Shown: positions 4,262 through 35,997 of the stretch, piece by piece | Layout of the letters: each line of letters begins with the position of its first letter | Numbering within the stretch: position 1 is the first letter of the stretch | From: Dialister micraerophilus DSM 19965 | GTDB lineage: Bacteria; Bacillota; Negativicutes; Veillonellales; Dialisteraceae | Assembly: GCF_000194985.1 (NCBI RefSeq) | Contig: NZ_GL878519.1 | Location: 1,104,168 to 1,140,231, forward strand | Length of the DNA: 36,064 bases | Direction of reading: 5' to 3' | The notes under the pieces: generated by a model | Told to the model about the DNA's origin: nothing | What the model saw: the letters and a program-made list of their open reading frames with translations, nothing else | Databases searched by the model: none | Position numbers and translations under genes: made by a program

Positions 4262-5134
4262 ATGAAAGCAGAATGGAAAGTTCCCGAAAAGTGGGACGGT
4301 TGTTCGATTAAAAAATTTATAAAAGGTTATTGCGGACTTTCTACAAATTTGTGGAAAAAAATAAAATGGAACGGTTCCGTCATTTTAAACGGAGTTCAAA
4401 TATATAATGCAAATATCGTTGTACATGTCAATGATAAAGTTGTATGCGAGTGGAGTGAAGAAACCGATATTATTCCATCATGTATTCCGTTGAAAATTAT
4501 ATATGAAGATAATACATTATTGATTATAGATAAAGATGCAGATATGATTATTCACCCTACAAGCAAAACGGAAACGAATACACTTGTAAATGCAATTTCC
4601 GGATATTATAAAAAAAATAATCAAATGTCTGGAATACATCCTATATACAGATTGGATCGAAATACTACCGGATTGATTGTTGTTGCAAAATCTGCAAAAT
4701 TACAATATGAATTGTCAAAAGAGCATGGAACTATAAAGCGTGAATATCTTGCTGTTGTAGAAGGCAGATTTAAAAATAAAGAAGGTAGCATTATTTATCC
4801 GATAGGAAGAAAAGAAGGCAGTATTATTGAATGGAAAGTAAGAGATGACGGAAAAGAAGCGAGAACCGATTATAAAGTGATTGAAGAGAAACCCTCATGT
4901 ACATTGTTGAAATTACGTTTGTATACAGGAAGAACTCATCAAATACGGGTACATATGTCATTCTTGGGTCATCCTCTTGTAGGTGATGATTTGTATGGAG
5001 GAAATTGTTCAAAACTGAAAAGACAAGCATTACATTCACATCATATTTCATTTATACATCCGGATACCGGTGAATGTATGGAATTTAAATCTCCTATGCC
5101 GTATGACATGTATGAATTTTTTGAAAATGAATAG
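4262..5134 (+). CDS. RluA-family 23S rRNA/tRNA pseudouridine synthase
   Basis: This 290-aa enzyme isomerises specific uridines to pseudouridine in structured RNA, probably 23S rRNA. An S4-like N-terminal part (about residues 10-70) is followed by the RluA/RsuA catalytic domain. The RluA motif is present as YRLDRNTTGLIVVAK, placing the catalytic aspartate at D132, and the RNA-binding motif GRTHQIRVHMSFLGHPLVGD is near residues 222-241. Length is typical of RluD-like enzymes. The ATG at 4262 is preceded by the ribosome site CGAGGTG. Its stop (TAG 5132-5134) lies just before or overlaps the start of the next gene, so the two are probably cotranscribed. Which RNA position it modifies cannot be decided from sequence alone. 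Confidence 0.93.
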   Translation: MKAEWKVPEKWDGCSIKKFIKGYCGLSTNLWKKIKWNGSVILNGVQIYNANIVVHVNDKVVCEWSEETDIIPSCIPLKIIYEDNTLLIIDKDADMIIHPTSKTETNTLVNAISGYYKKNNQMSGIHPIYRLDRNTTGLIVVAKSAKLQYELSKEHGTIKREYLAVVEGRFKNKEGSIIYPIGRKEGSIIEWKVRDDGKEARTDYKVIEEKPSCTLLKLRLYTGRTHQIRVHMSFLGHPLVGDDLYGGNCSKLKRQALHSHHISFIHPDTGECMEFKSPMPYDMYEFFENE

Positions 5135-11392: not shown

Positions 11393-11397
11393 CCAAT

Positions 11398-11449
11398 AAA
11401 AAAAGACCGTTTGAAAAATTAATTATAATTTCTCATTCGGCCTTTTTTT
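11398..11449. terminator. Bidirectional terminator, ABC exporter / small-protein operon
   Basis: An imperfect long stem is formed by AAAAAAAGACCG and CGGCCTTTTTTT, with inner A/T pairing around AATTAATTATAATT. T runs on both strands end the converging operons. The right arm touches the stop codon of the small gene at 11448. Confidence 0.7.
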
Positions 11450-11678
11450 ACATTGTTCGTTTTCCGAGTGAAGGGTGATTTACCTGTTTAAGACTGCGTT
11501 TTTCTATAAGAGTCAATGCTTTTTGCATACTTATATCTTCTCTTTTGTCTTTTGTTTCATATACAAGCAAAGGATTGTCCGTATTTAATTCACTTGCGGG
11601 AAGGTATACATATTCTTTTAAAAAGTTATCACCATAAATGAATCCTGACAAAAGTTTGCTTTCTGCAACCTTATGCAT
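11448..11678 (-). CDS. Small protein of unknown function (76 aa)
   Basis: I do not recognise this protein. It is read from the ATG at 11678, which overlaps the stop of the phosphoesterase gene within ATGCATAA. A strong ribosome site (GGAGGAT) inside the end of that gene supports this start over an upstream in-frame ATG at 11696. The product begins MHKVAESKLLSGFIYGDNFL and ends HPSLGKRTM. It is soluble, mildly basic, and lacks a signal peptide, membrane helix or cysteines. The body has a mixed sheet/helix look with a helical segment ISMQKALTLIEKRSLKQ. Tight coupling suggests it works with, or is expressed in proportion to, the phosphoesterase. It is likely real because of the overlap and ribosome site. 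Confidence 0.72.
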   Translation of the reverse strand: MHKVAESKLLSGFIYGDNFLKEYVYLPASELNTDNPLLVYETKDKREDISMQKALTLIEKRSLKQVNHPSLGKRTM

Positions 11679-12384
11679 CGGTATCCTCCAAATCACATAT
11701 AAATAAAGGTTTGAAATTCAAGTAGTCTGCTGAAGTAAGATGAAGACGTATTCCGTCAACTTCGCTCGGAATGTTGTAAAAATGAGGATTGCCGTGTATA
11801 TGTCCGTAAATACAATCTGTTGCACCGTATTTTTTCATTATATCGTGCATATGAGTTGGATTACGTGCTTCATCATAAGGCGGATAGTGAAGGCATGCAA
11901 TAATGCGTTCGCAAGGAAGTTTTTGTGCGGAAATCAAACCTCGCTCCATGCGTCCTTCTTCACGTGCCAAAATTTTTTCATCATCTTTTGTAAATTTTCG
12001 TGAAGTTTCCGCTATCCAACCTCTGGTACCGGTGAGAGCTATTTGTCCTACTTTTATAGCACAATTATGAATGAATTCAAACTTACCTTGCGTCATTTTG
12101 GTCATTTTAGTAACCGTATCCCACCAATAATCGTGATTACCTCTGACAATTATTTTTCGTCCGGGAAGATTTCCTATCATAAGCAAATCTGAAATGGCAG
12201 TTTTTAAGTTCATAGCCCAAGATAAGTCACCTGCCAAGATGACGGTATCTTCAGGTTTAATCGTTTCGAGCCATGAATTGACAATTTTTTGGCGATGATT
12301 TTTCCAATGATCCCCGAAAATATCCATCGGTTTGGTAGGAGGATCGCCGGAAAGATGAAAATCGCTGAAAGCATATAATTTCAT
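11671..12384 (-). CDS. Calcineurin-like metallophosphoesterase
   Basis: This 237-aa cytoplasmic phosphoesterase (PF00149) carries the full set of metal-ligand motifs: SDFHL (D8, H10), AGDLSW (D53), RGNHDYWW (N83, H84, D85), CLHYPP (H166) and GHIHG (H195, H197). It resembles the YkuE/YpbG-like single-domain hydrolases, and its substrate (nucleotide, phosphodiester or lipid) cannot be told from sequence. The ATG at 12384 lies one base after the stop of the upstream DUF4931 gene, and its own stop overlaps the small downstream gene by 8 bases. The three therefore form one translationally coupled operon. The lack of a signal peptide argues against a secreted role. Confidence 0.92.
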   Translation of the reverse strand: MKLYAFSDFHLSGDPPTKPMDIFGDHWKNHRQKIVNSWLETIKPEDTVILAGDLSWAMNLKTAISDLLMIGNLPGRKIIVRGNHDYWWDTVTKMTKMTQGKFEFIHNCAIKVGQIALTGTRGWIAETSRKFTKDDEKILAREEGRMERGLISAQKLPCERIIACLHYPPYDEARNPTHMHDIMKKYGATDCIYGHIHGNPHFYNIPSEVDGIRLHLTSADYLNFKPLFICDLEDTDA

Positions 12385-12385
12385 A

Positions 12386-13147
12386 TTAAACTCCGAAGTA
12401 TTTTTCAGAAAGAAGCAGTTTTTTTATAATATTTCTGTTCTTATCTGAAAGTGTATTTGTTATGTAATATCCTCTGTGTAAAGGATTTGTTGTAATAATC
12501 GGAATAATTTTTGCGTGAATTTTTTCCAAATTATAAAAGAAAATATTGTAACTTGTGCAATTTATAGGAAAATCGTTTAATAAAAATTTTGCACAATTTT
12601 GTATTGCATCGGAAAAATTATTTATATTTCCGTCTTTATTCAGTGTAACGGTAAATTCTCCGATTCCGTAAATAGGCACATTTGAAAATTTTAAAGTGTA
12701 ATCGCAATTTTCATTTATAATCGGACCTGAAAAATTTTTCTCATCAATATTCAGTTTATAATCATAGTCTTTAAAACCCATTATTTGTGAGTGAGGATGT
12801 CTTTGAGAACCTCCGGAAAAAGGTCCGTAATTTCTGAAACAGATTACTGACTTAAATTTTCCGCTCGAGTCTGTTTTCAGCCATCTGTCAAATAAAAAAG
12901 AAAAAACATCGTGCAATTTATCGGAATCATATCGAGTAAATTCATCATCGTGTTTTTCAGTTTCAATTATAACCGTAGGCCATGTTCTATCCAGTACGGG
13001 ATATTTATTCATAAGCCAAATTATATCGTTTTTACGTTCAAGAATATTTGTCAAAGTATCTCTTCTGCAAAAAGGACATTCTTTTTTATTTGAATAGTAG
13101 GGTTTTTTATTTCCTATGTCTAAATTGAAAACAACAGATTTTTGCAT
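12386..13147 (-). CDS. DUF4931 protein, galactose-1-phosphate uridylyltransferase-like
   Basis: This 253-aa protein of the HIT/GalT superfamily matches the DUF4931 pattern. A zinc-type pair CPFC (C24, C27) lies near the N-terminus, followed by NKYPVLDRTWPTVIIETEKH and then HPHSQIMGF (H117, H119, Q121). That resembles the GalT active-site HPHxQ in which the second His is the nucleotidylated nucleophile. A nucleotide-transferase or hydrolase activity is therefore plausible, but no substrate is established for this family. At about 250 residues it is shorter than GalT. It heads a three-gene minus-strand operon with a metallophosphoesterase. The ATG at 13147 has GAGGA upstream. Confidence 0.8.
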   Translation of the reverse strand: MQKSVVFNLDIGNKKPYYSNKKECPFCRRDTLTNILERKNDIIWLMNKYPVLDRTWPTVIIETEKHDDEFTRYDSDKLHDVFSFLFDRWLKTDSSGKFKSVICFRNYGPFSGGSQRHPHSQIMGFKDYDYKLNIDEKNFSGPIINENCDYTLKFSNVPIYGIGEFTVTLNKDGNINNFSDAIQNCAKFLLNDFPINCTSYNIFFYNLEKIHAKIIPIITTNPLHRGYYITNTLSDKNRNIIKKLLLSEKYFGV

Positions 13148-13164
13148 ATATTATTCCTCTTCGG

Positions 13165-13175
13165 TTATTATAGCA
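13165..13175 (-). promoter_or_regulatory. Extended -10 promoter for the DUF4931 operon
   Basis: On the minus strand, TATGCTATAAT contains the extended -10 element TGn-TATAAT (TATAAT at plus 13167-13172) about 20 bases upstream of the ATG at 13147. The -35 is weak, as usual for extended -10 promoters. Confidence 0.45.
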
Positions 13176-13233
13176 TACCGAAATAAAAGGTAATTAAAAA
13201 ATAATTCATCGGAAAAATAAATTAAAAAAATTA

Positions 13234-13262
13234 TTGACAAAAATAATGCTATACGATATTAT
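13234..13262 (+). promoter_or_regulatory. Promoter of the amino-acid ABC importer
   Basis: TTGACA (13234-13239), a 17-bp spacer and TATTAT (13257-13262) form a near-consensus sigma-70 promoter 54 bases upstream of the binding-protein ATG. Confidence 0.72.
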
Positions 13263-13316
13263 TGTAACATAATACTTCATTAACTAAGTAAAGTAATAAA
13301 GAAATCAGGAGGGCTT

Positions 13317-16845: not shown

Positions 16846-19800
16846 ATGAAATTACTTCGATTGACAATGCAAGGCTTTAAATCTTTTGCAGATAAAACGA
16901 CAATAGAATTCAGTGACGGAATGACCGTTATAGTAGGACCCAACGGTTGCGGTAAAAGTAATATATCGGATGCTGTTCGCTGGGTTTTGGGTGAACAAAA
17001 TGTAAGAAATTTAAGAGGACAAAAATCTGAAGATATTATTTTCTCCGGATCGGAAACAAGAAATACAAAGCAAGTTGCGGAAGTTACAATGGTACTTGAC
17101 AATGAAGACGGAAAATTACCGTTGCAAACTGCAGAAGTAACTATAAGCAGACGTGTATTCAGAAGCGGTGAAAGTGAATTTTATATAAATAAAAGATCCT
17201 GTCGCTTGAAAGATATTCATGAACTTTTGGCAAACAGCGGACTTGGAAAAGGAACACTTGCAATTATAGGACAAAATCGTGTAGATCAAGTATTGACAGC
17301 TCAACCTGAAGAAAGGAGACTGATTTTTGAAGAAGTTGCAGGAATCAGTCTTTTTCGTATGCGTAAAAATGAAGGACTAAGAAAGCTTGAAAAAACAGAT
17401 GAAAATATGAATCGTGTAAAAGATATGACGGCACTTTTGGACGAACAATTGGTGCATTTAAAAGAAGCTGCCGAAAAAACAAAAATTTATCGTAAGTATG
17501 AAGAAGAGCAAAAAGCAATCAATATAACGGAACATTTATTGAAACTTGCATCTGTAAACAGAATGATTTCAAAATATGAAACGGAAATCAGAAATTTGAC
17601 AGATGAAAATGTAAAATATGAAACGGAAATATCAAAATTTACAACAGAAAAAGCAAAATTTGAAATAAAGAATGAAGAAAGTAAAAAAGAGCTTCGTGAA
17701 TCAAATGAAAAAGTTGCAAAATGTTTGCAAGAATTGGAAAAAATACGCAGTGACTACAGAATAAGAGAATCCTTACTTCAGCAAGTTAAAGATAAACTTC
17801 AGAAATTGAAAGAAGATGAAGAAGATCAAAACCTTGCGGAAAATGAAACAAAAGAAGAATTGTCGGCGGTAATTGAAGATTTAAAGAAATGTATTTCAGA
17901 AAAAGAAGAAAAAGAAAAGGAACTGTTACAAGCTGAAGAAGAAAAAAGTAAAATATCTTCTATACTTCAGCATGAAAAAGAAGAATATTATAAAGCACTG
18001 GATGTAGATAAAAAACAACTTGCAGAAAGAGAACGTTTAAAACAGGAATTTTTACATATAAAGCAAGAAAAAGTAAGACTGTTAGAAGAAAAAAGCAAAA
18101 AACAAAGGATTTGGAATTAATAAAAAATCAACGTAATGAAACTGAAAGAAAACTTAAATACATAACCGAATCAATTGAAAAATTGCAAAAAGAAATTTCG
18201 GTAAAAAAGAAAAATTCGGAAGAAACAGGTAAAAATTTAAGAAAAATACAAAACGAGCAGTTTATTATTTTACGTGAATTCAATGACACTCGAACAACTT
18301 ACGAAAAAATAAAAGATAAAAGAGAATATTTGTCAAGTTCAGACAGAGAAAATGCAAATTTCACAAGTGCTACAAGAAGCGTTCTGTCAAATATTTCCAT
18401 GTTTGGAAACGGTATATTCGGTACTGTAGGACAACTCCTTAAAGTTCCGGATGAATATGCAGATGCGGCAGAAGTTATATTAGGTGGTAAAGTTTCAAAT
18501 ATAGTAGTAGATACATCAAAAACTGCACAGAATATAATTGAATGGTTGAAAAGAAAAAAACTTGGAAGAACTACATTTTATCCATTGGCTTCAATAAGAA
18601 GAAAGCATAGAAATGAAATAGAAAAAGAAATTCTCGAAATTGAAGGTGTTAGAGGATTTGCAAAAAGTATTTTCAAATATGATAAAAAATACTCCGAATT
18701 ATTTGAATATTTATTAAATGGTACAGTGATTACGGAAAATTTGACGATTGCACGTAAATTATCCGATAAGTATAATCATACATTACGTATAGCAACGCTT
18801 GACGGTCAAATTATACATGCAGGAGGATCACTTACAGGAGGATCACTTAAAAAAAGTGAAAATACATTCTTCGGAAGAAAGAAAGAAATAGAAAAACTTT
18901 TAAAAGAAGAGAAAAATTTTGAAGAAAAATTAAAGAATTTGAAGCAAAAACGTTTAAATATAGATTTTGAATGTTCGAATTTATCGGACAAAGTAACAGA
19001 AGTACAGGAAAATTGTAAAAAGCTTGAGATAGATTATGCGTCATTAATTTCAAAAAAAGAAGGACTTGTAAACTCATTTAACGTATATAAATCAAATGAA
19101 GAAAAAAATAATATAGAACTTCAAAAAGTGTCAGATGATTTGAAAAGCATAGAAGAAAAAATAAAAGTTTTTTCTGAAAAGGATATTTCTGCAAATTCAT
19201 TGAAAAATACAGCCGATGACGGTAAGTTGAAATATTGGACGGAAAAAGAAGAAAAGGTGAAATCATCTATATCATCGATACAAGTTGATTTGGCGAAACT
19301 TCAGGAAGCAATTCATTTTAATCAAAAAATGAAAACTGAACGGGAAAATTATTCTATACTTCAAAAAAATGAACGTACCGAGCTTAATCAGGAAATAGCG
19401 GAAACTGTTGAAAAAGAAAAAAATATATCAAAAGAATTGGTACAGATGGAAGAATTATTTAAAACCAATCAAAAAAATTATGAAGATTCAAAAATAATAC
19501 AAAATAATCTACAAGAAAAATATGATATTTTTGAACAAGAACAAAAAACAAATGATGTTGAATGGCGTAAAATTCAAGAAGAATCCGCAAAACTTCAAAG
19601 TAAAATAACCGAACGAAAAATAAGGTTGGAAAATTTTAAAGAACAGGAATTGCAAGTTGTAGAATTTTTTAAAGAAAATAATTTAACTGTAGAAAATGCC
19701 GAAAAACTTCGTGTTGAAGGTAATATGCAAAGTATAAGCGGCAAAAAAATCGAAATTGAACGAAAAATTTCAGAATTGGGAAGTGTAAATCCCAACGGCG

Positions 19801-20402
19801 TTGAAGAGTATGAAATGCAATTAAGGCGTAGAGAGTTTTATGAAACACAAATTCATGACTTGGTAAAAGCGAAGGAAGGATTGCAAACTGTAATTGAAGA
19901 TATAGATAAAAAAATGGAAAAAGAATTTAAAGATGCGTTTTCTTTAATAAATAAAGAGTTCAACCGCATTATGAATTTGATGTTTGACGGGGGTAAAGCA
20001 AGACTTGAATTGACAGATGAAAAATCTCCGTTGGATGGAGGTGTGGAAATTTATCTTCAACTTCCGGGTAAAAAACGCCAGTCATTGACGCTCATGTCCG
20101 GAGGTGAGCGTGCATTGACGGTAATAGCACTTCTTATTTCATTTATGGCATATAAACCGGCTCCGTTTTGTTTTGTAGATGAAATAGATGCATCGCTTGA
20201 CGATGCAAATGTCGCACGATATAGCAGCATGATTGCAGATTACAAAAAGAAAACACAATTCATTGTTATATCGCATCGTAAAAAAACAATGGAATATGCC
20301 GATACCTTGCAAGGCGTTACGATGGGCGAAAAGGGTGTTTCATCGTTAATTACAGTTCATATGAAAGATTACATAAAGGAGAGCAATAATGAGCTTTTTT
20401 GA
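16846..20402 (+). pseudogene. smc: Chromosome partition protein SMC, interrupted by an apparent 1-base frameshift
   Basis: SMC is the condensin ATPase that organises and segregates the chromosome with ScpA/ScpB. The N-terminal half runs from ATG 16846 and carries Walker A GPNGCGKSN (31-39) and the head segment AIIGQNRVDQVL, then coiled coil. The frame stops at the TAA 18118-18120. The second half continues in another frame from about 18105 with coiled coil, hinge (GNGIFGTVGQLLKV... AGGSLTGGS, about 18410-18850), coiled coil, the signature LMSGGERALTV and Walker B CFVDEIDASLDD. Restoring one A at CAAAGG (18104-18107) gives continuous SKKQKDLELIKNQRNE and a normal SMC length near 1,185 residues. 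This may be a mutation, an assembly error, or frameshifting. If it is an assembly error the gene is intact. Confidence 0.88.
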
Positions 20403-22538: not shown

Positions 22539-22614
22539 GGGCGATTAGCTCAGCTGGGAGAGCGTCTGCCTTACAAGCAGAATGTCGGCAGTTCGATCCT
22601 GTCATCGCCCACCA
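22539..22614 (+). tRNA. tRNA-Val (TAC anticodon), copy 1
   Basis: A 76-nt cloverleaf with acceptor stem GGGCGAT / ATCGCCC, D-arm TAGCTCAGCTGGGAGAGC and anticodon loop CTTACAA. The T-arm has GTTCGAT, and CCA is encoded. It is identical to the copy at 22852-22927. It has its own promoter and terminator. Confidence 0.97.
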
Positions 22615-22641
22615 AAAAGAACACGATTGTGTTCTTTTTTT
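22615..22641 (+). terminator. Terminator after tRNA-Val copy 1
   Basis: The hairpin AAGAACAC-GATT-GTGTTCTT is followed by T6 directly after the encoded CCA. Confidence 0.85.
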
Positions 22642-22653
22642 CATAAAAAACAG

Positions 22654-22682
22654 TTGCAAAAAGCAAAAAACTTTGTTATTAT
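22654..22682 (+). promoter_or_regulatory. Promoter of the tRNA Asn-Glu-Val unit
   Basis: TTGCAA (22654-22659), a 17-bp spacer and TATTAT (22677-22682) lie 13 bases before tRNA-Asn. The -35 is the same as in the promoter of the first tRNA-Val. Confidence 0.6.
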
Positions 22683-22695
22683 AGCAAAGTAACAT

Positions 22696-22771
22696 TCCTG
22701 AATAGCTCAGTTGGTAGAGCAATCGGCTGTTAACCGATCGGTCGTAGGTTCGAGTCCTACTTCAGGAGCCA
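22696..22771 (+). tRNA. tRNA-Asn (GTT anticodon)
   Basis: A 76-nt cloverleaf with acceptor TCCTGAA / TTCAGGA, anticodon loop CTGTTAA, T-loop GTTCGAGTC and encoded CCA. It is two bases upstream of tRNA-Glu and so part of one transcript. Confidence 0.97.
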
Positions 22772-22773
22772 AT

Positions 22774-22848
22774 GGCCCGTTCGTCAAGCGGTTAAGACAC
22801 CGCCCTTTCACGGCGGAGTCGGGGGTTCGAATCCCCCACGGGTCACCA
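22774..22848 (+). tRNA. tRNA-Glu (TTC anticodon)
   Basis: A 75-nt cloverleaf with acceptor GGCCCGT / ACGGGTC (one G-T pair), anticodon loop CTTTCAC, T-arm GGGGGTTCGAATCCCCC and encoded CCA. Confidence 0.97.
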
Positions 22849-22851
22849 TTC

Positions 22852-22927
22852 GGGCGATTAGCTCAGCTGGGAGAGCGTCTGCCTTACAAGCAGAATGTCG
22901 GCAGTTCGATCCTGTCATCGCCCACCA
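22852..22927 (+). tRNA. tRNA-Val (TAC anticodon), copy 2
   Basis: Identical over all 76 nt to the copy at 22539-22614, including the preceding ATTC and the following AAAA. It is the last gene of the Asn-Glu-Val transcript. Confidence 0.97.
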
Positions 22928-26692: not shown

Positions 26693-27898
26693 TTGGAGGG
26701 ATTTTTACTGAATGAACAAACTTGGTTACAGCATTTAAAAGAAAAACGCTTGGCTTATGGACTATCTCAAAACCGTTTAGCTGTTGCGACTGGTATTACA
26801 AGGCAGTATCTAAGCGATATTGAAACAGGAAAAGTCAAGCCATCAGAGGATTTACAGCAGTCCCTTTGGGAAGCTCTGGAACGCTTCAATCCCGACGCTC
26901 CCCTTGAAATGCTGTTTGATTATGTAAGGATTCGCTTTCCGACAACAGACGTACAGCAGGTGGTCGAAAACATCTTACAACTGAAACTGTCCTATTTTCT
27001 TCATGAGGACTATGGTTTCTATTCTTATTCAGAGCATTATGCTTTAGGCGACATATTCGTCCTTTGCTCCCATGAACTGGACAAAGGAGTTCTGGTGGAA
27101 TTGAAAGGTCGTGGGTGCAGACAATTTGAAAGCTATCTTCTGGCACAACAAAGAAGCTGGTATGAGTTCTTTATGGACGTTTTGGTGGCTGGCGGTGTGA
27201 TGAAACGCCTTGACCTTGCCATTAACGATAAGACAGGGATTTTGAATATCCCTGTACTCACTGAAAAGTGCCAACAGGAAGAATGTATCTCCGTCTTCCG
27301 CAGTTTTAAAAGCTATCGCAGTGGCGAACTGGTACGCAAAGAGGAAAAGGAATGTATGGGAAACACCCTCTATATCGGTTCATTACAAAGTGAAGTTTAT
27401 TTCTGTATCTATGAAAAGGACTACGAGCAGTACAAGAAAAATGATATTCCCATTGAAGACGCAGAAGTAAAAAACCGTTTTGAGATTCGATTGAAAAATG
27501 AGCGTGCCTATTATGCAGTCCGTGATTTACTCGTCTATGACAATCCAGAGCATACCGCCTTTAAAATTATCAATCGGTATATCCGTTTTGTAGATAAAGA
27601 CGATTCCAAACCTCGTTCTGATTGGAAACTGAATGAAGAATGGGCTTGGTTTATTGGGAACAATCGTGAACGATTAAAACTAACCACAAAACCAGAGCCT
27701 TACTCCTTCCAAAGGACGCTGAACTGGCTATCTCATCAAGTTGCCCCGACCTTAAAGGTTGCGATTAAACTTGATGAAATCAACCAGACGCAGGTTGTAA
27801 AAGACATTCTCGACCATGCGAAACTGACAGACCGACACAAGCAGATTTTGAAGCAACAGTCAGTAAAAGAACAGGACGTGATAACAACAAAAAAATAA
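26693..27898 (+). CDS. orf20: Tn916 Orf20, MobT/NicK-type relaxase
   Basis: This 401-aa relaxase of the Rep_trans (HUH-less, RCR initiator-like) type nicks oriT and starts rolling-circle replication and transfer. An N-terminal XRE-type helix-turn-helix (GLSQNRLAVATGITRQYLSD, about 23-42) precedes the Rep_trans domain (about 80-370), whose conserved tracts include LDLAINDKTG. The start is ambiguous. The conventional TTG at 26693 lies before the ribosome site GGAGGG (26695-26700). The in-frame CTG at 26708 is spaced correctly after it, giving 396 residues. The nearby ATG is out of frame. Confidence 0.93.
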   Translation: MEGFLLNEQTWLQHLKEKRLAYGLSQNRLAVATGITRQYLSDIETGKVKPSEDLQQSLWEALERFNPDAPLEMLFDYVRIRFPTTDVQQVVENILQLKLSYFLHEDYGFYSYSEHYALGDIFVLCSHELDKGVLVELKGRGCRQFESYLLAQQRSWYEFFMDVLVAGGVMKRLDLAINDKTGILNIPVLTEKCQQEECISVFRSFKSYRSGELVRKEEKECMGNTLYIGSLQSEVYFCIYEKDYEQYKKNDIPIEDAEVKNRFEIRLKNERAYYAVRDLLVYDNPEHTAFKIINRYIRFVDKDDSKPRSDWKLNEEWAWFIGNNRERLKLTTKPEPYSFQRTLNWLSHQVAPTLKVAIKLDEINQTQVVKDILDHAKLTDRHKQILKQQSVKEQDVITTKK

Positions 27899-27940
27899 CT
27901 CAAATACAAATTCATTGAATATAGAGAGGAGAACATTTTT

Positions 27941-28162
27941 ATGAATTTTGGACAAAACCTTTATAACTGGTTTCTATCAAACGCTCAATCACTGGTGCTT
28001 TTAGCAATCGTTGTGATTGGCTTGTATCTTGGCTTCAAGCGTGAGTTTAGTAAACTGATTGGCTTTCTCATCATTGCGATTATTGCGGTGGGCTTGGTGT
28101 TCAACGCTGCTGGAGTAAAAGACATTTTATTAGAGCTATTTAATCGCATTATCGGTGCTTAA
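27941..28162 (+). CDS. orf19: Tn916 Orf19, small membrane protein (TcpD-like)
   Basis: This 73-aa protein is almost entirely two hydrophobic helices (about 17-34 and 39-58) separated by a basic turn (GFKREFSK). It corresponds to Orf19 of Tn916 and to small TcpD-type subunits of Firmicutes type IV secretion machines. AGAGAGGAG precedes the ATG. A channel-component role is inferred from homologous systems. Confidence 0.9.
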   Translation: MNFGQNLYNWFLSNAQSLVLLAIVVIGLYLGFKREFSKLIGFLIIAIIAVGLVFNAAGVKDILLELFNRIIGA

Positions 28163-28278
28163 ATTAAACCGTTATTTTGTGGAATATAAGTGGTTTTCTT
28201 ATGTTCCGCAAAAGAATGGTACACCAAACGAAGTGCGGTAGGGATTTTTGAATCTCTACAAAGAAAGGACGTGAACAC
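28163..28278 (+). other. Structured intergenic region (candidate single-strand origin)
   Basis: The segment holds a long imperfect hairpin, TTTTGTGGAATATAAG against CTTATGTTCCGCAAAAG (about 28173-28211). A shorter one (TAGGGATTTTTGAATCTCTA) follows before orf18. ICEs of this group replicate by rolling circle and need a single-strand origin. This non-coding, hairpin-rich gap downstream of the relaxase is a reasonable candidate, but an attenuator is equally possible. Confidence 0.4.
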
Positions 28279-28776
28279 ATGGACGATATGCAAGTCTATA
28301 TTGCCAACTTAGGTAAATACAATGAAGGAGAATTAGTCGGTGCTTGGTTTACCTTTCCCATTGATTTTGAAGAAGTCAAAGAGAAAATCGGCTTGAATGA
28401 TGAATACGAGGAATACGCCATTCACGATTATGAGTTACCCTTTACGGTTGACGAATACACTTCTATTGGCGAACTCAATCGCCTATGGGAAATGGTATCG
28501 GAGTTGCCAGAGGAACTACAATCCGAGCTATCTGCTCTGCTCACTCATTTTTCAAGTATTGAGGAACTAAGCGAATATCAAGAGGATATTATCATTCACT
28601 CGGATTGTGATGATATGGCAGATGTCGCACGTTACTACATTGAAGAAACTGGAGTATTGGGCGAAGTGCCAACCAGTCTTCAAAACTATATTGATTACGA
28701 ATCCTATGGTCGTGATTTAGAAATTTCGGGAACTTTTATCACAACCAATTATGGGATTTTTGAAATCGTCTATTGA
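28279..28776 (+). CDS. ardA: Tn916 Orf18, ArdA antirestriction protein
   Basis: This 165-aa, strongly acidic protein mimics the shape and charge of bent B-form DNA and blocks type I restriction enzymes, protecting the ICE as it enters a new host. Asp/Glu clusters run through the protein (DFEEVKEKIGLNDEYEEYAI; VDEYTSIGEL; SDCDDMADVA). It matches the three-domain elongated ArdA architecture known from the Tn916 protein structure. The ATG at 28279 follows AGAAAGGACG. It is intact and of full family length. Confidence 0.96.
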   Translation: MDDMQVYIANLGKYNEGELVGAWFTFPIDFEEVKEKIGLNDEYEEYAIHDYELPFTVDEYTSIGELNRLWEMVSELPEELQSELSALLTHFSSIEELSEYQEDIIIHSDCDDMADVARYYIEETGVLGEVPTSLQNYIDYESYGRDLEISGTFITTNYGIFEIVY

Positions 28777-28789
28777 AAGGATTGATTCT

Positions 28790-29182
28790 ATGAAGAAAAT
28801 ACGAAGCTATACCAGTATTTGGTCTGTTGAGAAAGTGCTGTACTCCATCAACGATTTTAGACTTCCGTTTCCCATAACCTTTACGCAAATGACGTGGTTT
28901 GTCGTGTCACTGTTTGCGGTTATGATACTTGGCAACTTGCCACCTCTTTCCATGATTGAGGGAGCATTTCTCAAATATTTTGGAATTCCTGTGGCTTTCA
29001 CATGGTTTATGTCTACAAAAACCTTTGATGGTAAAAAGCCTTATGGATTTTTGAAGTCTGTCATTGCTTATGCACTGCGACCAAAGCTGACCTATGCAGG
29101 GAAAAAAGTAACCCTTGGCAGAAACCAGCCACAAGAAGCCATTACGACAGTTAGGAGTGAATTTTATGGCATATCCAATTAA
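28790..29182 (+). CDS. orf17: Tn916 Orf17, TcpE-family channel protein
   Basis: This 130-aa membrane protein has two hydrophobic helices (about 32-50 and 58-75) and a basic C-terminal tail. It resembles TcpE/ConD, an inner-membrane component of Gram-positive conjugation machines. The frame is open from 28751, overlapping ardA, but ATG 28790 with GAAAGG upstream gives the usual Orf17 N-terminus MKKIRSYTSIWSVEKV. Its 3' end overlaps the start of orf16 by 17 bases. Confidence 0.9.
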   Translation: MKKIRSYTSIWSVEKVLYSINDFRLPFPITFTQMTWFVVSLFAVMILGNLPPLSMIEGAFLKYFGIPVAFTWFMSTKTFDGKKPYGFLKSVIAYALRPKLTYAGKKVTLGRNQPQEAITTVRSEFYGISN

Positions 29183-31613
29183 ATACATTGAAAATAATCT
29201 GGTCTGGAATAAAGATGGCGAATGTTACGCCTATTATGAGCTTATTCCTTACAATTACTCATTCCTAAGTCCAGAACAGAAAATACAAGTGCATGATTCT
29301 TTCAGACAGCTTATCGCACAAAATCGTGATGGCAAGATTCATGCTCTACAAATCAGTACAGAATCCAGCATACGTTCTGCACAAGAACGTTCCAAAGAGG
29401 AAGTAACTGGCAAACTCAAAGTAATTGCCTATGACAAAATCGACCAACAGACAGACGCTTTAATATCCATGATTGGCGAAAATCAAGTGGACTACCGCTT
29501 CTTTATCGGCTTTAAGTTGCTTCTCAACGATCAAGAGTTTTCTATGAAAAGTCTTACCGTTGAAGCCAAAAATGCTTTGTCTGATTTTGTCTATGATGTG
29601 AACCATAAGCTAATGGGCGATTTTGTCAGCATGAGTAATGATGAAATCCTGCGTTTTCAGAAGATGGAAAAGCTCTTGGAAAATAAAATCTCTCGTCGTT
29701 TCAAAATCCGTAGACTGGATAAGGACGACTTCGGCTATCTGATTGAACATCTTTATGGACAGACAGGTACAGCTTATGAAGATTATGAGTACCATCTATC
29801 AAAGAAGAAGCTGGATAATGAAACGCTGATTAAATATTATGACCTTATTAAACCGACCCGTTGTTTGGTGGAAGAAAAACAGCGATACCTAAAAATTCAA
29901 CAGGAAGACGAAACCGTCTATGTGGCGTACTTTACCATCAACAGCATTGTCGGCGAATTGGACTTTCCGTCCTCTGAAATCTTCTACTACCAGCAACAGC
30001 AATTTACATTCCCGATTGATACTTCTATGAATGTGGAAATCGTGGCAAACCGTAAAGCACTAAGCACCGTTCGTAATAAAAAGAAAGAACTAAAAGACCT
30101 AGATAACCACGCATGGCAAAGTGATAACGAAACCAGCTCTAATGTGGCGGAAGCTCTGGAAAGTGTCAATGAGCTGGAAAATAATTTAGACCAAAGCAAG
30201 GAATCCATGTATAAGCTCTCTTATGTGGTGCGTGTTTCCGCAAATGACTTGGACGAATTGAAACGTCGTTGTAATGAAGTGAAAGATTTTTATGACGATT
30301 TAAGTGTCAAGTTGGTACGACCATTTGGAGATATGCTGGGCTTACATGAAGAATTTTTACCATCAAGCAAGCGTTATATGAATGACTATATTCAGTATGT
30401 AACCTCTGATTTCTTAGCTGGACTTGGTTTCGGTGCTACTCAAATGCTTGGCGAAAATGAGGGTATTTATGTTGGCTATAGCTTAGATACAGGACGCAAT
30501 GTCTACCTCAAACCTGCTCTTGCCAGTCAAGGGGTTAAGGGTTCAGTAACCAATGCATTAGCGTCTGCCTTTGTAGGTTCGCTAGGCGGTGGAAAATCCT
30601 TTGCGAATAACCTTATCGTCTATTATGCAGTGCTTTATGGGGCACAAGCAGTGATTGTTGACCCGAAAGCGGAACGTGGCAGATGGAAAGAAACCTTGCC
30701 AGAAATCGCTCACGAAATTAATATTGTCAATCTGACTTCTGATGAGAAAAATAAAGGCTTACTTGACCCTTACGTGATTATGAAAAATCCCAAAGATTCT
30801 GAATCACTGGCAATCGACATTTTGACGTTCCTTACGGGGATTTCATCACGAGATTCTGACCGTTTCCCTGTTCTACGAAAAGCCATTCGTGCTGTAACTA
30901 ATAGTGAAGTGCGAGGTCTTCTGAAAGTGATTGAGGAATTACGGGTTGAGGGAACTCAAATAAGCACCAGCATAGCCGACCATATCGAAAGTTTTACAGA
31001 CTATGACTTTGCACATCTGCTCTTTAGTGATGGATATGTGGAGCAGTCTATCAGTCTTGAAAAACAACTGAACATCATACAGGTTGCCGACTTGGTACTT
31101 CCCGATAAAGAAACCTCCTTTGAGGAATATACCACAATGGAGTTACTATCGGTGGCAATGCTGATTGTCATTAGTACCTTTGCGTTAGACTTTATCCATA
31201 CAGACAGAAGCATTTTTAAAATTGTTGACTTAGACGAAGCGTGGAGCTTCTTACAGGTGGCACAAGGTAAAACACTGTCTATGAAACTGGTTCGTGCTGG
31301 ACGTGCTATGAACGCTGGGGTATATTTCGTGACCCAGAATACAGATGACCTTTTAGATGAAAAGCTGAAAAATAATCTTGGTTTGAAATTTGCGTTCCGC
31401 TCTACTGACCTTAACGAGATTAAAAAGACCCTTGCCTTTTTCGGCGTTGACCCAGAGGACGAAAATAATCAGAAGCGATTGCGTGATTTGGAAAATGGAC
31501 AGTGCCTTATCAGTGATTTATATGGTCGTGTCGGTGTGATACAGTTCCACCCTGTATTTGAAGAACTGCTCCATGCCTTTGATACCAGACCGCCTGTGCG
31601 AAAAGAGGTGTAA
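29166..31613 (+). CDS. orf16: Tn916 Orf16, VirB4-like ATPase (ConE family)
   Basis: This 815-aa conjugation ATPase of the VirB4/TraU class powers assembly or substrate movement of the type IV secretion system at the cytoplasmic face. The N-terminal half mediates partner contacts. The motor carries Walker A SLGGGKSF (about 474-481) and Walker B KIVDLDEAWSFL (about 686-697), followed by FVTQNTDDLL. The frame is open 17 codons further upstream, but ATG 29166 (AGGAGTG upstream) matches the known Orf16 start and length. The overlap with orf17 indicates translational coupling. Confidence 0.95.
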   Translation: MAYPIKYIENNLVWNKDGECYAYYELIPYNYSFLSPEQKIQVHDSFRQLIAQNRDGKIHALQISTESSIRSAQERSKEEVTGKLKVIAYDKIDQQTDALISMIGENQVDYRFFIGFKLLLNDQEFSMKSLTVEAKNALSDFVYDVNHKLMGDFVSMSNDEILRFQKMEKLLENKISRRFKIRRLDKDDFGYLIEHLYGQTGTAYEDYEYHLSKKKLDNETLIKYYDLIKPTRCLVEEKQRYLKIQQEDETVYVAYFTINSIVGELDFPSSEIFYYQQQQFTFPIDTSMNVEIVANRKALSTVRNKKKELKDLDNHAWQSDNETSSNVAEALESVNELENNLDQSKESMYKLSYVVRVSANDLDELKRRCNEVKDFYDDLSVKLVRPFGDMLGLHEEFLPSSKRYMNDYIQYVTSDFLAGLGFGATQMLGENEGIYVGYSLDTGRNVYLKPALASQGVKGSVTNALASAFVGSLGGGKSFANNLIVYYAVLYGAQAVIVDPKAERGRWKETLPEIAHEINIVNLTSDEKNKGLLDPYVIMKNPKDSESLAIDILTFLTGISSRDSDRFPVLRKAIRAVTNSEVRGLLKVIEELRVEGTQISTSIADHIESFTDYDFAHLLFSDGYVEQSISLEKQLNIIQVADLVLPDKETSFEEYTTMELLSVAMLIVISTFALDFIHTDRSIFKIVDLDEAWSFLQVAQGKTLSMKLVRAGRAMNAGVYFVTQNTDDLLDEKLKNNLGLKFAFRSTDLNEIKKTLAFFGVDPEDENNQKRLRDLENGQCLISDLYGRVGVIQFHPVFEELLHAFDTRPPVRKEV

Positions 31614-31615
31614 AT

Positions 31616-33793
31616 GTGAAACCATCAATATTAAACAGAATAAAATCAAACTGGACGCTGAAGCGTCTAGGTAAAGTGGCAATGACAGTGGCTTTCACAC
31701 TTGTGATTGCCATTTTTCTTTTAGCCATGATGGGAACAGTGGTTCAAGCTGCGGGCTTGGTAGATGATACAATCAATGTGGCAAATGAGTACAGCCGATA
31801 CCCACTTGAAAACTATCAACTGGATTTTTATGTTGATAATAGCTGGGGCTGGCTACCGTGGAACTGGTCGGACGGAATTGGAAAACAAGTCATGTATGGC
31901 TTATATGCCATTACCAATTTTATTTGGACAATCAGTCTTTATGTTTCCAATGCGACTGGCTACTTAGTTCAAGAAGCCTATTCCCTTGACTTCATTTCTG
32001 CTACAGCAGATTCCATTGGCAAGAATATGCAGACCCTTGCAGGAGTTACGCCTAGCGGACTATCAACAGAGGGATTCTATGTTGGATTCCTCTTACTCTT
32101 GATTTTGGTTCTTGGGGTTTATGTTGCCTATACAGGACTGATAAAAAGAGAAACTACAAAAGCGATTCATGCCATTGTGAACTTTGTCATGGTATTTATC
32201 CTATCAGCTTCCTTTATTGCCTACGCTCCCGACTACATTAAAAAAATCAATGATTTTTCATCAGACATCAGTCAAGCCAGCTTATCACTTGGCACAAAAA
32301 TTGTCATGCCCCATTCCGATAGTCAAGGCAAGGACAGTGTGGACTTGATACGTGACAGCCTATTTTCCATACAGGTTCAACAACCGTGGCTACTGCTTCA
32401 ATACAACAGTTCAGACATTGAAAGTATTGGTGCTGACCGTGTGGAAAGTCTACTTTCAACCAGTCCAGACAGTAATAATGGAGAAGACAGAGAAAAAATT
32501 GTAGCAGAAGAAATCGAAGACAGAAACAATGTGAACATGACGATTACAAAAACTATTAACCGCTTGGGTACAGTCTTCTTTCTCTTTGTATTCAATATCG
32601 GGATTTCTATATTCGTATTCCTACTAACAGGAATCATGATTTTCTCGCAGGTGCTTTTTATCATCTATGCTATGTTTCTGCCTGTGAGCTTTATTTTAAG
32701 TATGATTCCATCTTTTGATGGTATGTCGAAACGAGCCATTACTAAACTCTTTAATACCATTTTGACACGAGCTGGAATCACGCTGATTATTACGACAGCC
32801 TTTAGTATTTCAACCATGCTCTATACCTTATCGGCTGGTTATCCGTTCTTTTTGATTGCCTTTCTACAGATTGTGACCTTTGCAGGAATCTACTTCAAAC
32901 TGGGCGATTTAATGAGTATGTTTTCGCTTCAAAGCAACGATTCTCAAAGTGTGGGAAGTCGTGTGATGAGAAAACCTCGTATGCTTATGCACGCTCATAT
33001 GCACCGCCTACAGCGTAAACTTGGACGCTCCATGACAGCTTTAGGTGCTGGCTCTGCCATTGCCAGTGCTACAGGAAAACAAGGACAGTCGGGTAGTTCT
33101 GGTAGGACACAAGCAGATCACACCCGTCCAGACGGACAGGAAAAATCAACACTTGGAAAACGTATCGGACAAACAATCGGAGCAGTTGCTGATACCAAAG
33201 ATAAAATCGTTGATTCTGCTGGTAATCTCAAAGAACAGGTTAAGGATATTCCGACCAATGCAAGATATGCAGTGTATCAAGGAAAATCCAAAGCAAAAGA
33301 AAATGTTCGTGACCTAACTTCCAGTATTTCTCAAACCAGAGCAGACAGAGCCAGCGGACGCAAGGAACAGCAGGAACAAAGACGCAAAACCATTGCAGAG
33401 CGTCGCTCTGAAATGGAACAGGTCAAACAGAAAAAACAGCCAGCTTCTTCCGTTCATGAAAGACCAGCTACTAAGCAAGAACAATCTCATGATGGACAGA
33501 CCGCAAAACAATCTTCTGTTCAGGCTTTACGCATGGAATCTCAACAAGCCAAACAGGAGCGTCCAGCAGTTAAGTCCGATTCTTCAAGTTTAAAAGCGGA
33601 ACGTCAAAACCGTACTACACAAGAAAGAACAGTTCAAAAGCCAGCAACTTCAACTACACCAGCAGACAGAGCTTCACAACGTCCAGTCACAAAAGAGCGT
33701 CCGTCTACTGTTCAAAGAGTTCAAAGTCAAAACCTTAGAAATAGACCACCAATAAAATCCGCCACTATCAAGAAAGGCAGTAAGAAACCATGA
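31616..33793 (+). CDS. orf15: Tn916 Orf15, polytopic channel protein (ConG/VirB6-like)
   Basis: This 725-aa membrane protein forms the core translocation channel (ConG/TcpH-like, VirB6 class). A first helix near 20-40 is followed by a periplasmic-type segment, then clusters of hydrophobic helices at about 160-200, 310-360 and 380-420. The last 270 residues are a long Gln/Lys/Arg/Ser-rich disordered tail with repeated EQ/KQ motifs (EQQEQRRKTIAERRSEMEQV). Translation starts at GTG 31616 after AGAGGTG; an ATG two bases earlier is out of frame. Its stop overlaps the start of orf14 by four bases. Confidence 0.92.
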   Translation: MKPSILNRIKSNWTLKRLGKVAMTVAFTLVIAIFLLAMMGTVVQAAGLVDDTINVANEYSRYPLENYQLDFYVDNSWGWLPWNWSDGIGKQVMYGLYAITNFIWTISLYVSNATGYLVQEAYSLDFISATADSIGKNMQTLAGVTPSGLSTEGFYVGFLLLLILVLGVYVAYTGLIKRETTKAIHAIVNFVMVFILSASFIAYAPDYIKKINDFSSDISQASLSLGTKIVMPHSDSQGKDSVDLIRDSLFSIQVQQPWLLLQYNSSDIESIGADRVESLLSTSPDSNNGEDREKIVAEEIEDRNNVNMTITKTINRLGTVFFLFVFNIGISIFVFLLTGIMIFSQVLFIIYAMFLPVSFILSMIPSFDGMSKRAITKLFNTILTRAGITLIITTAFSISTMLYTLSAGYPFFLIAFLQIVTFAGIYFKLGDLMSMFSLQSNDSQSVGSRVMRKPRMLMHAHMHRLQRKLGRSMTALGAGSAIASATGKQGQSGSSGRTQADHTRPDGQEKSTLGKRIGQTIGAVADTKDKIVDSAGNLKEQVKDIPTNARYAVYQGKSKAKENVRDLTSSISQTRADRASGRKEQQEQRRKTIAERRSEMEQVKQKKQPASSVHERPATKQEQSHDGQTAKQSSVQALRMESQQAKQERPAVKSDSSSLKAERQNRTTQERTVQKPATSTTPADRASQRPVTKERPSTVQRVQSQNLRNRPPIKSATIKKGSKKP

Positions 33794-34791
33794 AACTGAA
33801 AGCTTTAGTGATTGGTGGTTCTGGGCTATTCTTGATGGTCTTCTCACTACTTCTGTTTGTTGCCATTTTATTTTCAGATGAACAAGATGGCGGTTTTTCA
33901 AACATTCACTATGGCGGTGTGAATGTTTCCGCAGAAGTGCTGGCTCATAAGCCTATGGTAGAAAAATACGCTAGAGAATATGGCATTGAAGAATACGTCA
34001 ATGTACTGCTTGCTATTATACAGGTGGAATCGGGCGGTACTGCCGAAGATGTTATGCAGTCCTCGGAATCCCTTGGTCTACCACCCAATTCATTGAGTAC
34101 AGAAGAATCCATCAAGCAAGGTGTGAAGTATTTCAGTGAATTATTAGCCAGTAGAGATAGGCTCGGTGTGGATTTGGAATCGGTTATCCAGTCCTACAAT
34201 TATGGCGGTGGCTTCTTAGGGTATGTGGCTAATCGTGGAAACAAATATACCTTTGAACTGGCTCAAAGTTTCTCTAAGGAATATTCAGATGGCGAAAAAG
34301 TGTCCTATCCCAATCCAATAGCCATACCCATCAATGGGGGCTGGCGATATAACTATGGCAATATGTTTTATGTTCAGCTTGTTACGCAGTATCTTGTCAC
34401 AACTCAATTTAATGATAATACGGTACAAGCCATCATGAACGAAGCACTGAAATATGAGGGTTGGAAGTATGTCTATGGCGGAGCTTCCCCGACTACTTCA
34501 TTTGATTGTAGCGGACTGACACAATGGACGTATGGCAAAGCTGGGATTAAATTACCACGAACCGCACAACAACAATATGATGTGACCCAACATATCCCAC
34601 TATCCGAAGCAAAAGCCGGCGATTTGGTTTTCTTTCATTCTACCTATAACGCTGGCTCTTATATTACTCATGTTGGGATATACCTTGGCAATAACCGTAT
34701 GTTTCATGCAGGCGACCCAATCGGTTATGCCGACTTAACAAGCCCCTACTGGCAACAGCATTTAGTGGGAGCAGGACGAATCAAACAATGA
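33790..34791 (+). CDS. orf14: Tn916 Orf14, bifunctional cell-wall hydrolase
   Basis: This 333-aa membrane-anchored hydrolase opens peptidoglycan for the conjugation channel. An N-terminal anchor helix (about 8-28) is followed by a lysozyme-like domain with catalytic glutamate in IIQVESGG (E80). The C-terminal NlpC/P60 endopeptidase domain has its triad in FDCSGLTQW (C240), THVGIYLG (H294) and FHAGD (H306). It is homologous to CwlT of ICEBs1. It overlaps orf15 by the ATGA tetranucleotide. All catalytic residues are intact. Confidence 0.95.
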   Translation: MKLKALVIGGSGLFLMVFSLLLFVAILFSDEQDGGFSNIHYGGVNVSAEVLAHKPMVEKYAREYGIEEYVNVLLAIIQVESGGTAEDVMQSSESLGLPPNSLSTEESIKQGVKYFSELLASRDRLGVDLESVIQSYNYGGGFLGYVANRGNKYTFELAQSFSKEYSDGEKVSYPNPIAIPINGGWRYNYGNMFYVQLVTQYLVTTQFNDNTVQAIMNEALKYEGWKYVYGGASPTTSFDCSGLTQWTYGKAGIKLPRTAQQQYDVTQHIPLSEAKAGDLVFFHSTYNAGSYITHVGIYLGNNRMFHAGDPIGYADLTSPYWQQHLVGAGRIKQ

Positions 34792-34805
34792 GAAAGGAAG
34801 ATTTA

Positions 34806-35723
34806 ATGATGAAATTTAGAAAAAATCAGAATAAAGAAAAACAGATACCAAAGGAAAAGAAACCTCGTGTCTACTATAAGGTCAATCCTCATAAAAAGGT
34901 TGTGATTGCCTTGTGGGTACTTTTAGGGCTTAGTTTCAGCTTTGCGATATTCAAGCACTTTACAGCTATAGATACTCATACTATTCACGAAACAACTATC
35001 ATAGAAAAGGAATACGTTGATACTCATCATGTAGAAAATTTTGTAGAGAACTTTGCGAAAGTCTACTATTCATGGGAGCAATCCGATAAGTCCATTGATA
35101 ATCGAATGGAAAGTCTAAAAGGCTATCTGACAGATGAACTTCAAGCTCTCAATGTTGATACAGTACGCAAAGATATTCCTGTATCGTCTTCTGTAAGAGG
35201 ATTTCAGATATGGACGGTAGAGCCAACTGGCGACAATGAGTTTAATGTAACCTACAGTGTAGACCAGCTCATTACAGAGGGAGAAAATACAAAGACCGTC
35301 CACTCTGCTTATATAGTGAGTGTCTATGTAGATGGTTCTGGAAATATGGTACTGGTTAAGAATCCGACCATTACCAACATACCTAAGAAATCAAGTTATA
35401 AACCAAAAGCCATTGAAAGTGAGGGGACGGTTGATTCCATTACAACCAATGAAATCAATGAGTTTTTAACGACGTTCTTCAAGCTCTATCCTACAGCGAC
35501 AGCCAGTGAACTTTCCTACTATGTGAATGACGGGATATTAAAACCAATCGGAAAAGAGTACATCTTTCAAGAACTGGTAAATCCTATTCACAATCGTAAG
35601 GATAATCAAGTCACGGTATCGCTGACAGTGGAGTATATCGACCAGCAGACCAAAGCAACGCAGGTATCTCAATTTGATTTGGTACTTGAAAAGAACGGGA
35701 GTAATTGGAAGATTATAGAATAA
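34806..35723 (+). CDS. orf13: Tn916 Orf13, TcpC/ConC-family channel protein
   Basis: This protein of about 305 residues with one membrane helix (about 32-50) and a large extracytoplasmic part belongs to the TcpC family, VirB8-like NTF2 folds that sit in the conjugation channel. The frame is open from 34788, overlapping orf14, but the ribosome site AAAGGAAG (34793-34800) favours ATG 34806 or 34809. Two similar NTF2-type halves are suggested by ENFAKVYYSWEQ (early) and NEFLTTFFKLYP (late), each opening a helix-sheet unit. It is the last conjugation gene before the tet(M) control region. Confidence 0.92.
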   Translation: MMKFRKNQNKEKQIPKEKKPRVYYKVNPHKKVVIALWVLLGLSFSFAIFKHFTAIDTHTIHETTIIEKEYVDTHHVENFVENFAKVYYSWEQSDKSIDNRMESLKGYLTDELQALNVDTVRKDIPVSSSVRGFQIWTVEPTGDNEFNVTYSVDQLITEGENTKTVHSAYIVSVYVDGSGNMVLVKNPTITNIPKKSSYKPKAIESEGTVDSITTNEINEFLTTFFKLYPTATASELSYYVNDGILKPIGKEYIFQELVNPIHNRKDNQVTVSLTVEYIDQQTKATQVSQFDLVLEKNGSNWKIIE

Positions 35724-35792
35724 CAAATATTGGTACATTATTACAGCTATTTTGTAATCACGTACTCTCTTTGATAAAAAATTGGAGATTCT

Positions 35793-35821
35793 TTTACAAA
35801 TATGCTCTTACGTGCTATTAT
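35793..35821 (+). promoter_or_regulatory. tet(M) promoter
   Basis: TTTACA (35793-35798), a 17-bp spacer and TATTAT (35816-35821) sit downstream of orf13 at the start of the known tet(M) leader. It is the expected promoter of the leader/tet(M) transcript. Confidence 0.7.
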
Positions 35822-35852
35822 TTAAGTATCTATTTAAAAGGAGTTAATAAAT

Positions 35853-35876
35853 ATGCGGCAAGGTATTCTTAAATAA
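35853..35876 (+). CDS. Seven-residue leader peptide in the tet(M) 5' region
   Basis: ATG 35853, spaced from AAAAGGAG (35836-35843), opens the peptide MRQGILK and stops at TAA 35874-35876. It overlaps the left arm of a long RNA stem, so ribosome occupancy here could change folding. Whether it is translated is not known from the sequence. Confidence 0.4.
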   Translation: MRQGILK

Positions 35877-35960
35877 ACTGTCAATTTGATAGTGGGAACA
35901 AATAATTGGATGTCCTTTTTTAGGAGGGCTTAGTTTTTTGTACCCAGTTTAAGAATACCT
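35861..35960 (+). promoter_or_regulatory. Long-range stem in the tet(M) leader RNA
   Basis: AGGTATTCTTAAATAAACTG (35861-35880) can pair with CAGTTTAAGAATACCT (35945-35960), bulging a few bases. The enclosed part contains a G/T-rich loop with TTAGGAGGGC. The arrangement fits the structured leader known upstream of tet(M). Confidence 0.6.
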
Positions 35961-35997
35961 TTATCATGTGATTCTAAAGTATCCAGAGAATATCTGT

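Follow-up and report, generated by a model that had tools for sequence, protein, structure and literature searches.

A DUF4931 Protein, a Metallophosphoesterase and a Small Protein Without a Database Name Are Encoded by a Conserved Operon in Veillonellales

Introduction

The window, the whole stretch of 36,064 nucleotides of Dialister micraerophilus DSM 19965 that was analyzed here (genome size 1.28 Mb), contains three closely packed genes encoding a DUF4931 protein, a metallophosphoesterase (MPE) and a small protein (SP). The question raised by this locus is whether the three products act together, as was suggested in an earlier note on this DNA, which proposed a small, previously undescribed nucleotide repair or signalling pathway. 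A structure has been solved for the DUF4931 family (PDB 4QVU), and no published reaction turned up in literature searches on DUF4931 and 4QVU; a search combining Veillonella, GalT and metallophosphoesterase found nothing. The fixed pairing of the DUF4931 and MPE genes in one order, together with base-repair genes nearby in several lineages, offers a concrete place to seek both functions. The reading preferred here, at about an even chance, is an operon specific to this order, in which two nucleotide-phosphate enzymes are joined by a largely independent SP.

Organization of the Locus and Expression Signals

All three genes are located on the minus strand, in the order DUF4931 (12386-13147, 253 aa), MPE (11671-12384, 237 aa) and SP (11448-11678, 76 aa). 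A single base (12385) separates DUF4931 from MPE, and the ATG of SP ends at 11678, resulting in an 8-base overlap with the end of the MPE gene (11671-11678); the packing given in the earlier note is borne out by these coordinates. As read from the sequence, the starts of DUF4931, MPE and SP are each preceded by a Shine-Dalgarno-like sequence (GAGGAA, GGAG and GGAGG, respectively), the last of which lies at 11685-11689 on the minus strand, within the end of the MPE gene.

At the SP end, a strong stem-loop followed by a T run is present on the minus strand at 11396-11451, with its 5' arm reaching the SP stop codon. The stem-loop has a folding energy of -24.9 kcal/mol (z -7.1), and none of 200 shuffled sequences was equally stable; it was absent from the hits of a simple consensus terminator scan. 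This element is likely the terminator of the SP end and probably also serves the convergent ABC transporter gene, which ends at 11392. The operon promoter is presumably located in the intergenic region 13148-13316, between DUF4931 (minus strand) and a divergent solute-binding protein gene (plus strand), where a promoter scan gave background-level scores and picked out no promoter. From the packing, the common strand and the terminator, we infer that DUF4931, MPE and SP form one transcription unit.

The DUF4931 Protein

Both DUF4931 domains, DUF4931_N and DUF4931_C (PF16285/PF20956), were detected with E-values of 1.9e-39 and 4.8e-23 and scores above the curated cut-offs (135 bits against 24.1 and 81.8 bits against 28.6, respectively). 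The protein carries a CPFC motif at residues 24-27 and an HPHSQ motif at residues 117-121, so the assignment made in the earlier note is confirmed. In 18 of 18 sequences, C24, C27, H117, P118, H119 and Q121 are invariant. HxHxQ is taken here to be the catalytic motif of the GalT-like branch of the HIT superfamily, and the structural zinc-ligand pattern of this branch is presumed to be CxxC + H/C/D + H. The putative zinc-ligand positions of the DUF4931 protein include C24, C27 and H117, while position 68 varies among the 18 sequences (H, C, D and others).

The Pfam models of GalT and Ap4A phosphorylase gave weak matches below their cut-offs, and the GalT equivalog models of NCBIfam scored well below theirs (12.3 against 102.1 bits and 17.5 against 448), so the protein falls outside true GalT. 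The predicted model (pLDDT 84) was matched by Foldseek to 4qvu (E 1.4e-20), the GalT-type structure 6k5z (E 2.8e-10) and the ADP-glucose phosphorylase 2h39 (E 7.6e-9). A comparison of the family profile with PDB sequences gave 4QVU (E 8.3e-90), 6k5z (E 1.6e-8), Apa2 (E 9.4e-7) and At5g18200 (E 1e-4); the profile search and Foldseek thus agree on one set of relatives. Judged by its predicted model, the DUF4931 protein is a member of the HIT superfamily with a GalT-like double-HIT fold.

The closest of these relatives, BCE0241 of Bacillus cereus (4QVU), belongs to the DUF4931 family, with a likeness over nearly the whole length (37% identity in Foldseek), but has the motif HAHMQ instead of HPHSQ. 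The title of the 4QVU entry gives no function, and among the titles of the literature retrieved on 4QVU none concerned its function. GalT and the ADP-glucose phosphorylase At5g18200 have a similar fold (Foldseek) and share the HPHxQ motif and its surrounding region, although the DUF4931 protein is shorter than GalT (253 against approximately 350 aa). The yeast Ap4A phosphorylase Apa2 also resembles the DUF4931 protein (profile positions 20-124; Foldseek E 3.3e-7), but the identity is only approximately 18% and Apa2 is without the CPFC pair in the alignment. By analogy, the substrate would be NDP-sugar- or NpnN-like; its NMP part would be bound to His119 of the HPHSQ motif, giving a nucleotidyl-histidine, and would then be handed on to phosphate or another acceptor.

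The Metallophosphoesterase

The second protein matches the Pfam family Metallophos (PF00149) with an E-value of 9e-14 and 52.8 bits (cut-off 21.5). Residues D8, H10, D53, N83, H84, H166, H195 and H197 are invariant in 20 of 20 sequences, and its metal-binding motifs are those of calcineurin-like metallophosphoesterases. By sequence, MPE is therefore a calcineurin-like metallophosphoesterase with a complete set of metal-ligand motifs; the earlier note had named it a metallophosphoesterase. The roles of the conserved motifs of DUF4931 and MPE, in metal binding and catalysis, are presumed here from general knowledge. None of the named subfamilies acc_ester, YfcE, CpdA and PdeM was reached (best 24.1 against 148.25 bits), and MPE scored below the cut-off of every NCBIfam model that it touched.

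MPE is taken here to be of the COG1768 type. Relatives at E <= 1e-25 are present in 88 of 299 genomes of the phylum, and we know of no substrate for this widespread type; the passage found in the literature on COG1768 is a table of paralogues. From its motifs, MPE would be a two-metal phosphoesterase hydrolyzing a small phosphoester. The nucleotidyl-transfer and phosphoesterase classes that the earlier note assigned to the pair fit the predicted GalT-like fold and the metal motifs.

Conservation within Veillonellales

In each of the 60 relatives compared, which represent four families of the order, the DUF4931 and MPE genes are direct neighbors with a common strand. SP was detected in 56 of these relatives and adjoins MPE in the same orientation in 54. 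The two exceptions are G055, in which SP is on a different contig, and G023, in which it is inverted. The 54 include G006 (locus L135), a 1.3 Mb single-contig relative whose disrupted SP (4938-5111) consists of a 57-aa ORF plus another fragment that contains a stop. In Veillonella caviae (L176), SP is inverted and faces the MPE gene while its full match length is kept. All four genomes of family f2 (G012, G015, G018, G021) have DUF4931-MPE without SP, so the trio is present in three of the four families. Since order and strand recur in 60/60 and 54/56 relatives, the arrangement is not due to chance, and the DUF4931-MPE-SP operon is stably maintained through most of Veillonellales, an order of anaerobes of the gut and mouth.

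A pattern scan of named genomes, using two patterns built from Veillonellales sequences, yielded 69 SP loci, of which 44 have the arrangement DUF4931-MPE-SP, 13 have CorA-SP and 12 have other arrangements. The loci nearest to that of the window belong to Allisonella, a Veillonellaceae bacterium and Dialister. Distances between stop codon and ATG in the 44 trio loci show an MPE-SP overlap in 25 (of 4 bases in 14), a spacing of 0-20 bases in 9 and a larger one in 10; three overlaps of 125 bases are uncertain, as they change with the position at which the MPE frame is taken to stop. For DUF4931 and MPE, 43 of these loci were measurable, with an overlap in 7, a spacing of 0-20 bases in 18 and a larger one in 18. 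Spacing in the 60 relatives was taken from alignment ends only, which overstates the gaps. The overlap in 25 of 44 loci indicates that MPE-SP coupling is common, in agreement with the translational coupling claimed earlier, and rules out that it is peculiar to the host genome.

Distribution outside the Order

The distribution was determined in a class sample of 150 Negativicutes genomes (28 of them Veillonellales) and a phylum sample of 299 genomes, drawn evenly from larger groups, with E-value thresholds of 0.01 for SP, 1e-5 or 1e-20 for DUF4931 and 1e-25 for MPE; one partial, GalT-like DUF4931 row (G113, E 1.8e-6) was dropped before the class counts. SP, DUF4931 and MPE are present in 93, 100 and 93 genomes of the class sample, and in 68, 72 and 65 of its 122 non-Veillonellales genomes, respectively. 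Within these 122, DUF4931 shares 26 genomes with MPE where 38 would be expected (Fisher p 7e-6 for a deficit); MPE and SP coincide in 27 genomes against 36 expected, and DUF4931 and SP in 46 against 40 expected (p 0.04), with tests that ignore relatedness. All three genes are found in 10 of the 122. The conservation of the neighborhood that was to be checked according to the earlier note is thus order-wide, but scattered outside the order. A lack of co-occurrence beyond close relatives, named there as evidence against the proposal, is largely what is seen outside Veillonellales. Outside the class, the phylum sample has DUF4931 in 6 genomes and MPE in 83, with no overlap; this zero is weak, since only approximately 1.7 would be expected.

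Of the DUF4931 stretches fetched outside the order, 39 of 44 are without MPE, and 11-14 of 49 DUF4931 loci have flanking genes for a flippase, a YegS-type kinase or RF3. Draft contigs may hide adjacency in such counts. Six genomes (G061, G067, G081, G085, G101 and G156) among the 26 that carry DUF4931 as well as MPE have these genes at most 12 kb apart; in three of the six, from one genus, the distance is within 4 kb, with acetolactate synthase genes in between in the two that were fetched. In Anaerospora (G156), MutY, NUDIX, DUF4931, MPE and SP have the same order and orientation over approximately 18 kb, with other genes between them, which fits an ancestral functional cluster.

A separate observation was made in Anaerospora hongkongensis (L116, 5137-13216), where an insert of approximately 7.3 kb interrupts the resident MPE gene at the GNH motif. 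This insert contains three tyrosine-recombinase-like genes in a row and its own full-length MPE gene, which appears diverged by eye.

DNA-Repair Genes near the Enzyme Pair

Of the 44 named trio loci, 32 have MutY divergently upstream of DUF4931 and 22 have a NUDIX gene there. In 12 of the 44, MutY was not found within the available DNA; these include L136-L144, the nine named trio loci closest to that of the window, with Allisonella and Dialister. Neither MutY nor NUDIX is among the immediate neighbors of the trio in the window. In family f2, a family-4 uracil-DNA glycosylase (UDG) gene is located directly upstream of DUF4931-MPE in all four genomes. A relative of this UDG gene lies across the start of MPE in L299, and in L298 it is the second gene upstream of MPE. 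These are two of nine MPE loci outside the class; in Negativicutes outside the order, UDG was found near none of 31 MPE loci. The repair neighbors lend some support to a nucleotide or DNA maintenance setting for both enzymes and point to no specific reaction.

The Small Protein and Its Partners

SP is present in 93 of the 150 Negativicutes genomes and in 9 of the 299 phylum genomes, all nine of which are Negativicutes; the titles of the 69 named loci are also of Negativicutes, except for two 'Bacillota bacterium' MAGs. No Pfam cut-off was reached, no NCBIfam match was found at E <= 1, no PHROGs match was better than E 0.01 and no PDB sequence was better than E 1.1, which speaks against a known family in these four libraries and agrees with the earlier description of an unrecognized 76-aa protein. 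A sub-threshold match to DUF4893 was obtained for 4 of 36 members (best E 0.0012). A chance or mis-called ORF is rejected, since SP recurs in 56 of the 60 relatives and an alignment of 16 sequences has 18 invariant columns. SP is a family without a database name in the searched libraries and is seen only in Negativicutes.

The predicted structure of SP, a confident model (pLDDT 92.5, pTM 0.82), consists of a helix, strand pairs, a helix and short strands. A cellular relative of the Tad2-type small proteins that sequester nucleotide signals is very improbable: six of the first ten VIA-align entries are Tad2 and the order of helices and strands is similar by eye, but these entries score Z 3.3-4.0 over 61-62 of 76 residues (rmsd 3.4-3.8), where the best rows of all reach only about 4, the stated noise level of the tool, and an unrelated chain (1yem_A) scores 4.1, while Foldseek gave no match at E <= 0.001, none of 36 SP members matches Tad2 PF11195 and hhalign probabilities were <1% with small and enlarged profiles. 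The Tad2 likeness is treated here as a structural lead only. Passages in PMC6429828 had no bearing on SP.

Outside the order, another partner is common. Of the 68 SP genomes there, 31, from seven families, have CorA directly upstream of SP in the same orientation, at a distance between alignment ends of 2-35 bases in 30 and 246 in one; the 13 CorA-SP loci of named genomes are all Phascolarctobacterium or Avacidaminococcus by title. The CorA-linked proteins belong to the same family as SP, with 36-49% identity (14 CorA-linked alignment rows), but they share their operon with a CorA-type Mg2+ channel, where SP of the window has MPE. CorA is present in 127 of the 150 class genomes, and the host genome has its own CorA at a distant site. 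In L124, L127 and L223, similar proteins of 60-69 aa, antitoxin-like by eye, are encoded directly downstream of CorA-SP.

Possible Functions of the Operon

In the preferred reading, both enzymes would probably serve general nucleotide and DNA maintenance, and DUF4931 and MPE would have been co-transcribed through the history of the lineage without forming an obligate pathway. SP would be a small alpha/beta protein that Negativicutes have retained while its partner changed (CorA, MPE or none of the two); it would thus probably have a role of its own and not act as an obligate third subunit. The largely independent role of SP is suggested by its loss, inversion or re-partnering while the enzyme pair stays. 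Against this reading, the adjacency of DUF4931 and MPE in all 60 relatives and the MPE-SP overlap in 25 of 44 loci are strong for unrelated genes, and the enzymes are also within 12 kb of each other in six of 26 other Negativicutes with both.

The order-wide adjacency and the frequent MPE-SP overlap speak for a joint nucleotide repair or signalling pathway, in which DUF4931 would transfer or phosphorolyze a damaged or signal nucleotide, MPE would remove the product and SP would bind or regulate it. Such a pathway, possible though distinctly less probable than the preferred reading, is also favored by the recurrent MutY, NUDIX and UDG genes (including the UDG-DUF4931-MPE order in f2 and the neighbors in L299 and L298) and by the ancestral gene order in Anaerospora. 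It is weakened by co-occurrence outside the order, where DUF4931 with MPE and MPE with SP fall below expectation and DUF4931 with SP is slightly above (relatedness uncorrected). In addition, MutY and NUDIX are divergent and outside the operon, 12 of the 44 trio loci yielded no MutY, neither gene is an immediate neighbor in the window, and UDG was found near MPE in none of the 31 loci of other Negativicutes outside the order. Of the earlier proposal, the enzyme classes and the conserved, often overlapping arrangement are supported and a role in nucleotide maintenance gains some support, while a dedicated three-gene pathway is not supported.

It is unlikely that SP is an accessory of CorA, linked to Mg2+ or other metals, which in Veillonellales was brought under the control of the operon of a metal-dependent phosphoesterase. 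The 31 CorA-SP genomes in seven families and the 13 named loci argue for this explanation. However, at least 11 SP genomes have no CorA match at E <= 1e-60, and many SP loci have other partners or no close same-strand partner. Profile comparison of SP with CorA gave no similarity, and no Mg riboswitch was found before CorA-SP in the 12 loci searched (of 18). Furthermore, tRNA genes are located just upstream of CorA in 6 of 8 CorA-SP loci searched outside family f18, indicating that the pair may be inherited gene order. The switch of SP between CorA and MPE operons is, in either case, a testable clue to its role.

A more far-reaching combination of these elements, which we consider rather improbable, is an ancestral Negativicutes maintenance cluster of MutY, NUDIX, DUF4931 and MPE, with UDG in one family, in which the GalT-like enzyme and the phosphoesterase would remove a damaged or signalling nucleotide not described before. 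SP, perhaps with a new small alpha/beta fold, would then be a ligand- or Mg2+-responsive regulator swapped between this operon and the CorA channel. If true, nucleotide clearance would be linked to the Mg2+ level.

Other Features of the Window

An SMC gene at 16846-20402 is present as two overlapping ORFs of 424 and 763 aa (SMC positions 2-427 and 428-1181, respectively), indicating a frameshift by mutation, assembly error or recoding. A cluster of tRNA genes, Val(tac)-Asn-Glu-Val(tac), is located at 22539-22927. The stretch 26693-36064 (and L397) is part of a conjugative element with a MobT relaxase, a TcpF ATPase and further transfer genes, which is presumably of the Tn916 type. The resistance gene tet(M) lies by this element, just past the end of the window, and the Rfam family RF02864 (Enterococcus sRNA 30) matches 35880-36044 with 198 bits.
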